A DNA stretch of 64,000 bases from Natrinema pellirubrum DSM 15624. GTDB taxonomy: Archaea; Halobacteriota; Halobacteria; Halobacteriales; Natrialbaceae. Below the pieces are notes generated by a model that saw nothing but the letters and a program-made list of their open reading frames with translations, ran no database searches and was not told where the DNA came from. This document shows positions 1 to 36,632 of the stretch, one piece after another (positions within the stretch are counted from its first letter, which is position 1; each line of letters opens with the position of its first letter). The DNA lies in assembly GCF_000230735.2 (NCBI RefSeq), contig NC_019962.1:2914001-2978000 (forward strand), written 5' to 3'. A program made the translations under genes and the position numbers.

Positions 1-828
1 GGGCTGGCCGACCGCGGCTACGAGATTGCCGATATCGACGACATCGTCCTCACGCACTTCCACGCCGACCACGCCGGACTGGCCGGCGAGATTCAGGCCG
101 AAAGCGGGGCCACCGTCTACGTCCACGAGGCCGACGCCCCGCTCGTCGCCGGGGCGGAAGACGCCGTCGCGGCCGTCGAGGATCGCCGTCGCGAACTGCT
201 CGCGGAGTGGGGCGTCCCCGAGGACGCCCGGCGGGAACTGCGTACCTTCTTCGAGTCGGCCGAGATCGAGGGGCCGCCGGCCGAGCCGACGCCCATCGAG
301 GACGGCGAGGTCCTCGCGGTCGGCGGCCACCGTCTCGAGACGGTCCACGCGCCGGGCCACGCGGCGGGCCTGTGCTGTTTCGAGATCGACGACGGGGACG
401 AGGCGTTCGTCGGCGACGCCTTGCTACCAGTGTACACCCCGAACGTCGGCGGCGCGGACGTCCGGGTCGAGCGCCCCCTCGCAAAGTACGTCGACACGCT
501 GGAACGACTCGCCGACCGCGACTACGACCGGGCCTGGCCCGGCCACCGCGACCCCATCGACGACCCGACTGCCCGCGCCGAGACGATCCTCGAGCATCAC
601 CGCGAGCGGGCGGCAACGATCGTCGAGTTGCTGGCCGACCATGGGCCGGCCGATGCCTGGACGATCAGTGCCCACCTGTTCGGCGACCTCGAGGGAATCC
701 ACATCGTCCACGGTCCCGGCGAGGCCTACGCCCACCTCGATCACCTCCGCCACGAGGGCTTTGTCACGGCCGATGGCGGCACGTATCGCCTCGAGCGGGA
801 ACCGAACGCTACGGAACGGATCGTTTGA
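1..828 (+). CDS. MBL-fold metallo-hydrolase, 5' truncated by window edge
   Basis: This frame is open from base 1 to the TGA at 826-828, so the gene starts before the window. The zinc motif HFHADH is encoded at 55-72. It is followed by VHAPGHAAGL, VGDALL and WPGHRDP, which supply the remaining metal ligands of the metallo-beta-lactamase fold. The last ~80 residues form a helical/winged-helix tail, as in lactamase-like proteins of the glyoxalase II / LACTB2 type. It is probably a cytosolic Zn-dependent hydrolase of a thioester, lactone or ester; the substrate cannot be told from sequence. The next gene starts 212 bp downstream with its own promoter, so the two are separate transcription units. 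Confidence 0.9.
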   Translation, partial: GLADRGYEIADIDDIVLTHFHADHAGLAGEIQAESGATVYVHEADAPLVAGAEDAVAAVEDRRRELLAEWGVPEDARRELRTFFESAEIEGPPAEPTPIEDGEVLAVGGHRLETVHAPGHAAGLCCFEIDDGDEAFVGDALLPVYTPNVGGADVRVERPLAKYVDTLERLADRDYDRAWPGHRDPIDDPTARAETILEHHRERAATIVELLADHGPADAWTISAHLFGDLEGIHIVHGPGEAYAHLDHLRHEGFVTADGGTYRLEREPNATERIV

Positions 829-14658: not shown

Positions 14659-14680
14659 GCACACTCGGGTATGAACTGGT

Positions 14681-14755
14681 AGCGGGATGGGATAGCCAGG
14701 AGATTCCGGCGGGCTCATAACCCGCAGATCGGTAGTTCAAATCTACCTCCCGCTA
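14681..14755 (+). tRNA. Initiator tRNA-Met (CAU)
   Basis: The 75-base gene folds into a full cloverleaf. The acceptor arm pairs AGCGGGA with TCCCGCT followed by A73. The anticodon stem is GCGGG/CCCGC around the loop CTCATAA (anticodon CAT). The T arm is GGTAG-TTCAAAT-CTACC. The three consecutive G-C pairs next to the anticodon loop and the A1-T72 pair are hallmarks of archaeal initiators, so this is not elongator Met or Ile2. There is no intron, and CCA is not encoded. The 3' end is repeated in degenerate form downstream. Confidence 0.96.
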
Positions 14756-14801
14756 TACTTCTGACGCGAGCAAGTTCGCGAGCGTCGAGTTATAGCACGG
14801 C

Positions 14802-14870
14802 GGTAGTTTGAACCAGACAGCACTCGAGCAAAGCGAGCGTGCTGGCGTGGTTCAAATCTACCTCCCGCTA
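14802..14870 (+). repeat. Degenerate repeat, copy 1, ending in a tRNA-iMet 3' copy
   Basis: Bases 14848-14870 match the tRNA 3' end (14733-14755) at 22 of 23 positions, including TTCAAATCTACCTCCCGCTA. The 5' part reads GGTAGTTTGAACCAGACAGC, followed by an imperfect hairpin GCACTCG...CGAGCGTGC. Confidence 0.65.
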
Positions 14871-14941
14871 CTTTTCAGGGATTCAACGACGAACAACGAG
14901 CATAGCAAGGAGTGAGTCCTGAATCCCGGACAATACGACGA

Positions 14942-15005
14942 GTATATTTGAACCGGACAGCGCTCGAGCGAAGTGCGAGCGTTGGTTCAAATCTCTCCCC
15001 TGGTA
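14942..15005 (+). repeat. Degenerate repeat, copy 2
   Basis: The block shares TTTGAACC(A/G)GACAGC, the CGCTCGAGCGAA...GCGAGCG hairpin and GGTTCAAATCT with copy 1. Its acceptor-like end has decayed to CTCCCCTGGTA. Confidence 0.55.
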
Positions 15006-15160
15006 TTCTGTACTGACCGACTCCGCGAGTGACGGTATCGCACGGTGAGCGCTCGACATCGGAAGCATCGTTCCGACCGTAGTTCGAATCCCGGCCGCGA
15101 GCCGCCATTGCGGCCGTGGTCGAACCCCTGTTCTCCGCTCGAAGCGGTCGAACGGCGGGT

Positions 15161-35366: not shown

Positions 35367-36434
35367 TTACCGGCGGTCGGCGACGCGCTCGGCGACCTCG
35401 AGGCCGTTGCGCAACGCCGCGTGCAGTCGGGCCTCGCCGGCGACCCAATCGCCGAGACAGTAGAGGCCGTCGGCCTCGGCCAGTTGGAGCGGATCGCGGG
35501 CGACGCCGTCCTCGGGGAGGGCGTATCGCCAGCCCTGATGGTCGGTCCAGTCTGGCTCGCGCAGACGCTCGTCGTCGAGCAGGTCGGCGGTCAGGGCCGC
35601 CAGTTCGGTCAGGTTCTCCGCCGGTGGTTCGTCGTAGCGGTCGACCGACCACTCGTGGTTGGCCTGGACGACCAGCAGCGACTCGCCGTCGGGGACGTGG
35701 CCGGGCTTGCACTCCTCGCGGGCGACCCAGCCCACCTCGTGGGCCTTGTCCGTGTTGACCAGTGCGTAGTAGGGCGTCTCGAGTTCGAAGGGGTAGTGAA
35801 AGATCCCGGTCCAGATCGTCCGGAAGGGGACGGCGTCGATGGCATCGACGAGGCGGCCCCGAACGTCGCTCTCCCAGTCGGCCGACAGCAGCAGTTCGGC
35901 GGTCTGTGGCGCTGGCGGGTTCAACAGGAGGACGTCGAACGGCCCCCACCGCCGGCCGTCGGCGTCCTCGAGATGCCAGACGCCCGCCGTCTCGCCGGAA
36001 CCCCGACCACCGTCGCCGTCCCGAATCACCCGTTCGACCCGCGTCTCCCGGTGGACCGTCGCGTCGCTACGGGCGAACAGCCGCTTGGCGATCTGGGTCA
36101 GTCCCTGCCGGTACGTCCACTTGTGATCGTCGCGGTCCTCGCCCGGCGATACCTCGCCGTCGACGGCGAAGGTCCAGACAGGCTCCTCGATATCAACCAG
36201 TCCGTGAGTGTCGAGGGTTTCGGTCAGCAAATCGACGACTCGATCGTCGTCGGACTTGACGTAATTCGCACCATAGTCGTAGACCGTCCCGTCGCGGCGT
36301 CTGGTCGCGGCCCGCCCGCAGACCCCGCGGGACTTCTCGAGTACCGTTACGTCGGCGTCCGGTGCCGTTCGCTCGAGCGCGTTGGTCGCGGCCGCTGCGC
36401 CGGCACCCGCACCGACGATTCCGATCCGTGTCAT
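35367..36434 (-). CDS. FAD-dependent oxidoreductase, renalase-like
   Basis: The 355-residue protein has an N-terminal MTRIGIVGAGAGAAAATNAL and VLEKSRGVCGRAATRR, the GR-ATR pattern of the renalase-like amine oxidase family. A C-terminal GLYCLGDWVAGEARLHAALR completes the FAD site. The start is the ATG at 36434. It is convergent with trkA, with only 4 bp between the stops. Substrate unknown; in bacteria related proteins oxidise isomeric NAD(P)H forms. Confidence 0.87.
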   Translation of the reverse strand: MTRIGIVGAGAGAAAATNALERTAPDADVTVLEKSRGVCGRAATRRRDGTVYDYGANYVKSDDDRVVDLLTETLDTHGLVDIEEPVWTFAVDGEVSPGEDRDDHKWTYRQGLTQIAKRLFARSDATVHRETRVERVIRDGDGGRGSGETAGVWHLEDADGRRWGPFDVLLLNPPAPQTAELLLSADWESDVRGRLVDAIDAVPFRTIWTGIFHYPFELETPYYALVNTDKAHEVGWVAREECKPGHVPDGESLLVVQANHEWSVDRYDEPPAENLTELAALTADLLDDERLREPDWTDHQGWRYALPEDGVARDPLQLAEADGLYCLGDWVAGEARLHAALRNGLEVAERVADRR

Positions 36435-36632
36435 GCTCGACCTTCGGTGGCGCGGCCTCAAGTAGCTCGGCCCAAACAACGACAACCGGACGGGTGAACT
36501 ATCGCTACCGGATGCCGCCGATCGGGGTCGGGCCGTCACGGCGAGTGTGTTTCGGGCAGCCGCCCGTCGCGGTCAGTCACGGAATCGGACGGATCGAACG
36601 GCTTTTGCAACGTCGGGGGGTAGGAGCGGGCG

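Follow-up and report, generated by a model that had tools for sequence, protein, structure and literature searches.

The initiator tRNA-Met(cat) gene lies on the forward strand at positions 14680-14756 of the window (the whole 64-kb stretch of DNA analysed here) as called by ARAGORN, with a match to the Rfam tRNA family RF00005 at 14681-14755. The last 20 nt of the gene, TTCAAATCTACCTCCCGCTA (14736-14755, from T54 to the discriminator base, hereafter the tail), recur downstream at 14851-14870 (20/20) and in degenerate form at 14986-15005 (15/20), and nowhere else in the window does either strand match the tail at 15/20 or better. A sequence-only reading of this DNA had described two blocks repeating the tRNA 3' end, each preceded by a common block and a hairpin, and our analysis bears out both statements. 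The tail copies follow a 39-nt direct repeat (14807-14845 and 14947-14985, 79% alike), and TTTGAACCA in the blocks is the reverse complement of TGGTTCAAA, so that each unit forms a single long hairpin when folded; unit 1 (14792-14871) and unit 2 (14936-15006), as single-stranded DNA, have z scores of -5.92 and -3.54 against shuffles.

The units follow the order tRNA-A-R-B-D(-A-R-B-D), in which D is the tail of the adjacent tRNA, R is an inverted arm complementary to its T-loop and T-stem, and A and B are hairpins that recur in new combinations. All elements at this locus lie on the forward strand. A1 (14756-14792) is a GC-rich spacer with a weak X-type hairpin, GACGCGAGCAA..CGCGAGCGTC, which by itself (14757-14795) folds no better than shuffles (z -0.17). 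The inverted arm R1 (14793-14812), TAGCACGGCGGTAGTTTGAA, is complementary to the T-loop and T-stem of D and imperfectly to its acceptor end, as seen in the sequence, the pairing test and the fold. It is followed by the hairpin B1 (14813-14850), CCAGACAGCACTCGAGCAAAGCGAGCGTGCTGGCGTGG, delimited by the direct repeat and the fold of unit 1 and carrying the linkers CCAGA and GCGTGG, and by the first tail copy, D1 (14851-14870). In the second unit, A2 (14871-14933) is a Y-type spacer hairpin, CTTTTCAGGGATTCA..TGAATCCC, recognised as an inverted repeat (fold z -1.82); R2 (14934-14952), TACGACGAGTATATTTGAA, is partly decayed and was placed from the sequence and from the arrays of relatives; B2 (14953-14985) is the hairpin CCGGACAGCGCTCGAGCGAAGTGCGAGCGTTGG, supported by the direct repeat and the fold of unit 2; and D2 (14986-15005) is the degenerate copy, whose text also ends the iMet array in the relative G007. 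Beyond it, positions 15006-15127 probably represent a third, decayed unit, assigned through repeat families: TATCGCACGG echoes TATAGCACGG of R1, CGACCGTAGTTCGAA echoes CGGCGGTAGTTTGAA, and a palindrome at 15070-15127 folds with a z score of -3.32.

Among 29 loci of relatives, the GtrA-like gene upstream of tRNA-iMet is present in 24 and the decarboxylase-like gene downstream in seven, where it begins 269 to 515 nt from the tRNA, leaving no room for a large element between them in those seven loci. Elsewhere in the window ARAGORN also calls a 93-nt tRNA-Phe(gaa) on the reverse strand (36390-36482), which is absent from the Rfam tRNA list of the genome and is probably a false positive.

The sequence-only reading had pointed to the other tRNA genes of the genome as a place to look for such blocks, and we found them behind 16 more. 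Of 45 tRNA genes identified by Rfam, 17 have within the following 300 nt a stretch that agrees with their own tail at 17 or more of 20 positions (at 19 or more in 16 of them), compared to none of 1932 swapped pairs in which tail and downstream sequence came from different tRNAs, which excludes chance as the source of the copies. Own-tail copies on the opposite strand were found for one gene in 45, and no tail copy lies behind 28. The R arm, at 11/12 or better, was detected for 9/45 own tRNAs against 15/1772 swapped pairs and is thus less well kept than D. Text preceding D is shared between different tRNAs of this genome (G000), being alike at 32/32 positions between Arg-cct and Val-cac and at 31/32 between Arg-tct and Pro-tgg, while the tails and arms in these pairs nonetheless fit each gene's own tRNA. 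Among the tRNAs compared in G005, which were part of its set, Asp-gtc and Thr-cgt agree at 28/32, and no pair in G007 reaches 27/32.

Across the loci examined, the tRNAs with units belong to 17 amino-acid classes (149 tRNA genes with a copy), and the median distance from the tRNA end to the copy is 102 nt; since the presence of a unit was the reason for including most of these loci, the figure of 149 is no measure of frequency. The match between D and its tRNA was measured in 117 units collected with a pattern that leaves the last 12 nt of D free. These agree with the adjacent tRNA at a mean of 10.91/12 positions (79 exact, 91 at 11 or more) compared to 5.31 for other tails, and in 83 of the 117 units none of the 113 other tails matches as well as the own one. 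At the free T-stem positions R pairs with D at 3.03/4 compared to 2.14 in 1000 shuffles (sd 0.07, highest 2.36). Complementarity of R to the acceptor part gave no signal in a first test (4.10 vs 4.02 of 8) and a weak in-register signal in a second (2.84 vs 2.43 of 8), and R therefore stands for the T-loop plus T-stem, about 12 nt. The second hairpin, B, carries recurrent linkers of the form NNAG..CGTGG. In motif-free sets, the base before D is G in 58/58 cases, with G in 42 and T in 14 at -2, T in 37 at -3, G in 39 at -4 and C in 37 at -5, and the bases after R are A at +3 and G at +4 in 27/34 each; G53 is common to tRNA and copy in 58/58, as expected from tRNA conservation.

Taken together, the A hairpins are more stably folded than their shuffled counterparts (n=60, mean z -2.33), and for B hairpins alone the gain in stability is only slight (mean z -0.89 over 60 hairpins); the palindromic arm score is likewise 8.0 compared to 5.3 in shuffles for A and barely raised for B (5.6 vs 4.9). 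By eye, B hairpins of many genera share the internal-loop text GTCGCA..CCGTC with tandem G-A steps, possibly a recognition feature. The A hairpins, the recurrent B text and the strong fold of iMet unit 1 are what might be expected of a functional RNA, whereby cleavage of read-through tRNA transcripts at the tail copies would liberate small RNAs in the manner described for the rtT/RttR RNA downstream of E. coli tyrT. The E. coli tyrT/tyrV repeats are indeed a bacterial likeness with tandem tail copies downstream of the tRNA: in K-12, three copies of the final 19 nt of tyrV follow at intervals of 178 bp (+155, +333 and +511), and the small RNA rttR and a small protein are annotated there. However this locus, the one examined in E. 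coli, differs from the haloarchaeal units in its longer period (178 bp compared to a median of 102 nt), in a tail that starts two nt later and includes CCA, in its annotated products, and in having no inverted T-arm at 11/12 or better. The pairing also argues against an RNA, since selection on a sense-strand RNA would be expected to favour G-U over A-C mismatches in its arms, and we found no such excess (G-U to A-C: 51 to 40 in R:D, 28 to 20 in B and 24 to 46 in A, the last running against the sense strand). TTT occurs within 9 nt after 60/149 tRNAs with units, 74/197 D copies and 25/84 tRNAs without a copy, compared to a background of 98/2390 at +300..390, indicating that the units bring a terminator-like T-run along; the runs that come directly after the tRNA count against an RNA function. 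In addition the units are absent behind 28 of the 45 tRNAs noted above, Rfam at gathering thresholds finds only RF00005 over the iMet tRNA in the whole window and no described RNA family on the blocks, and the hairpin text differs widely between species, contrary to the base-for-base conservation that the sequence-only reading had named as the mark of a functional RNA. We consider this explanation unlikely. A non-systematic look at the arrays listed revealed no obvious open reading frame in the units.

The units are widespread in haloarchaea. A pattern built from haloarchaeal units (GGATTYGAA-N25..55-GTGGTTCRAATCC) matches 206/292 genomes of the class, and a reversed control pattern matched none of the genome entries of the same 292. 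A stricter pattern (GATTYGAANNAG-N20..50-CGTGGTTCRAATC) matches 52/81 genomes of the class and 0/311 other genomes of the phylum, a comparison in which lineages with different text could be missed because the patterns were drawn from haloarchaeal units. A scan across 84,980 species gave at least 120 loci; of the 120 listed, 118 are haloarchaeal by title, one belongs to the uncultured archaeon A07HN63 and one to a Methanomassiliicoccales metagenome-assembled genome (MAG). These loci contain 127 pattern instances, 119 of which lie downstream of a tRNA gene of the same strand at a distance of at most 700 nt; five of the remaining eight are too near the locus edge to decide, and three lack a tRNA (one of them behind a 3.1-kb insert). 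In the Methanomassiliicoccales-labelled locus (L131, 6600-7000), tRNA-Ser is followed by two units that share the haloarchaeal linkers. In these units the acceptor complement is split off from the T-stem complement, and a loose pattern matches at two further places in that genome. In another genome, four pattern matches of identical text at 111-bp spacing (G083:C1:2656899-2657279) represent a recent tandem amplification. Plasmids of Haloferax, Natronorubrum and Halarchaeum (e.g. NZ_CP063207.1, 145740-145953) contain sequence resembling tRNA-iMet, in some cases together with a portion of the unit downstream of it.

We compared G000 tRNA by tRNA with its relatives G007 and G005 and with two loci of G004. 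The genes flanking tRNA-iMet differ in their affinities, the upstream gene of G000 being nearest to those of G004 and G005 and the downstream gene to that of G007. Behind Arg-gcg a unit is present in G000 and G005 and absent in G007, and the sequence after D in the two filled genomes corresponds to that directly after the tRNA in the empty one (junction identity 0.98 and 0.82). Ser-gga is filled in G000 and empty in G007 with the same precise D boundary (identity 0.98), and the Glu-ttc arrays of G000 and G007 each exceed that of G005 by one unit (identity 0.96). In all three cases a direct repeat of the tRNA 3' part precisely bounds the additional unit. Under a strict empty-site criterion applied to 105 orthologous pairs, Arg-gcg is the only case apart from tRNA-Asp of G007, which was dropped as an assembly duplication; a looser criterion adds further tRNAs, at which similar A hairpins may imitate an empty site. 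The direction of these events is not polarised, and some of them are probably losses by recombination between D repeats. Unit order also varies, being X,Y in G000 and Y,X in G005 at iMet and reversed between G000 and G007 at Ile-gat; such reversals could derive from an older, longer array that suffered different deletions. The copies themselves show polarity. In arrays with at least two copies, counted after neighbouring tRNA genes were removed, the tRNA-proximal D is better preserved than D2 in 24, worse in six and equal in 21 (better to worse: 3 to 0 in the own genome, 19 to 4 in pattern loci and 2 to 2 in the other genomes, G004, G005 and G007). R arms show no polarity (8 to 7, with 21 ties), and the few arrays from those other genomes show none either. 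The precise presence and absence of units between tail copies and the tendency of the proximal copy to be the better preserved agree in outline with the earlier suggestion of a small tRNA-derived repeat family subject to serial integration and loss.

A serious rival to insertion and loss is turnover without any dedicated enzyme, in which template switching and slippage, prompted by the near-palindromic T-arm, generate inverted and direct tail copies, gene conversion spreads hairpin text among tRNA loci and keeps the copies tRNA-like, and recombination at D or R deletes units. Haloarchaea are polyploid and undergo gene conversion. Under this explanation the target-matched arms follow directly; the palindromes lack wobble bias, the shared B text is flanked by T-loop text that is common to all tRNAs, identical units in tandem do exist (the four in G083), and the better state of the proximal D could likewise be owed to gene conversion. 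Furthermore the iMet array in G007 resembles the product of a deletion from one R arm to another, an event for which no dedicated enzyme is required. However, the recurrence of linkers and B types across the class is left unexplained, as is their absence from all 311 other genomes of the phylum (albeit with a pattern drawn from haloarchaea), and we regard enzyme-free turnover as a real possibility that is nevertheless less probable than not.

The remaining candidates involve known mobile elements. T-loop-type integrases cross over in the T-loop of the tRNA and duplicate the very part of the gene that D spans, and the blocks might thus be scars, i.e. attL and attR of viruses or plasmids that stayed behind at the tRNA attachment site when the interior was lost. 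The units share with elements of this kind a direct repeat from the T-loop to the 3' end, an intact tRNA and precise presence or absence. They differ in being about 100 nt long without integrase or cargo, in their inner hairpins and tRNA-matched inverted arm, and in occupying many tRNAs per genome. In favour of scars, a 3.1-kb insert that contains an ORC/Cdc6-like gene separates tRNA-Val from an intact unit in one relative (L167) and is bounded by tail copies of 20/20 and 18/20. Yet neither this insert nor the repeat at tRNA-Glu(ctc), the one clear integrase-linked tail repeat of the own genome and thus a single case, with at least 43 bp shared, has R-B-D at its ends, the unit interiors, being small, structured and recurring, do not look like random remains, the pattern is almost absent from viral contigs (two matches among 2.9 million, neither with a tRNA upstream), and none of the 12 matches to the integrase domain PF00589 in the genome falls inside the window. 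The idea that the blocks are the remains of integrated elements, also put forward in the sequence-only reading, is therefore weakened, as they are repeated, complete non-coding units that do not look like remains of ordinary integrase elements; we rate scars as the least probable of the explanations considered, and improbable in absolute terms. A candidate ORF in the L167 insert, considered as an integrase piece, had no Pfam match.

An integrase match lies 0.86 kb downstream of the tRNA-Glu(ctc) gene, and a distant copy of its tail at C1:1973488 was the one far copy obtained with a joined query of the tails of those own tRNAs that lack near copies. The gene and this copy are 288 kb apart (C1:1685246-1973514) with integrase matches near both ends, and the interval may be either one large island or several nested ones. 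A pleolipovirus-type attP was also considered as the origin of the units because IntSNJ2, an integrase of this type, integrates in tRNA-Met. It was rejected, since blastn of the iMet region against phages gave matches to the tRNA part only (among the 20 of 54 listed), the unit pattern occurs in just the two viral contigs, and ends of this kind are missing from the Glu-ctc element of the own genome. For comparison, the archaeal att lengths given in an excerpt of PMC8371274 include a 14-nt att for IntSNJ2, and an excerpt of PMC3119063 describes an integrated element in Haloquadratum with a 43-nt tRNA-His repeat whose copies are 52 kb apart.

The units also resemble MITEs and REP- or PATE-type repeats in being short, non-coding, palindromic and present in many copies per genome, and like a MITE with its target-site duplication they are flanked on both sides by a duplicated target, the D of 20 nt. 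They differ in being fixed behind tRNA genes and in having arms that match the host tRNA, such that the insert depends on its target. The palindrome-associated elements (PATEs) of Haloquadratum are described in the same excerpt as not causing target duplications (PMC3119063).

On balance we favour, at slightly better than even confidence, the interpretation that these blocks are 'tail cassettes', members of a family of palindromic, non-coding haloarchaeal units that are inserted and lost at tRNA tails. Such units would enter and leave by recombination in the T-loop, an entry leaving the tRNA intact and setting a new tail-bounded unit directly behind it, while older units would be pushed outwards and decay there. 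This would entail that insertion occurs, and not only deletion and duplication, and that the units, which may themselves be non-autonomous, are served in trans by a recombinase, perhaps one of the tyrosine type. The class-wide linkers and the B text common to different tRNAs favour a dedicated recombination system of this sort; our sequence analysis found no enzyme or circular form for the units.

Arrays of cassettes in integrons (attI, attC) offer a formal parallel. In integrons the freshest cassette sits at the anchor, and units end in imperfect palindromes that fold. The tail units likewise form arrays beside an anchor, the better-preserved copy being more often the one next to it, each unit ending in an imperfect palindrome able to fold into a duplex resembling a recombination core. 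They are unlike integron cassettes in that no ORF was seen in the units examined, the arms are tRNA-specific, and the anchor is a tRNA gene. It is conceivable, if doubtful, that tRNA genes serve as anchors at which a trans-acting recombinase captures minimal cassettes, so that the arrays would record past captures. The R-B-D end would in that case fold into a single-stranded copy of the T-arm core; in the folded R-B-D this core would comprise an overlap of 7 and a T-stem of 5, the exact stretch where R matches.

Full-text searches of open-access papers listed no description of this family, and the short hairpin units behind haloarchaeal tRNA genes have the appearance of small cassettes docking at tRNA ends that form a family so far undescribed. 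If this is true, a whole class of archaea carries an unnamed repeat family tied to its tRNA genes, whose units rewrite the stretch behind the tRNAs, the same stretch in which viruses and plasmids integrate. The arrays could then mark lineage history, or act to decoy or attract integrating elements, and the origin of target-matched inverted arms would be accessible in a genetically tractable system (Haloferax volcanii, Haloarcula hispanica).
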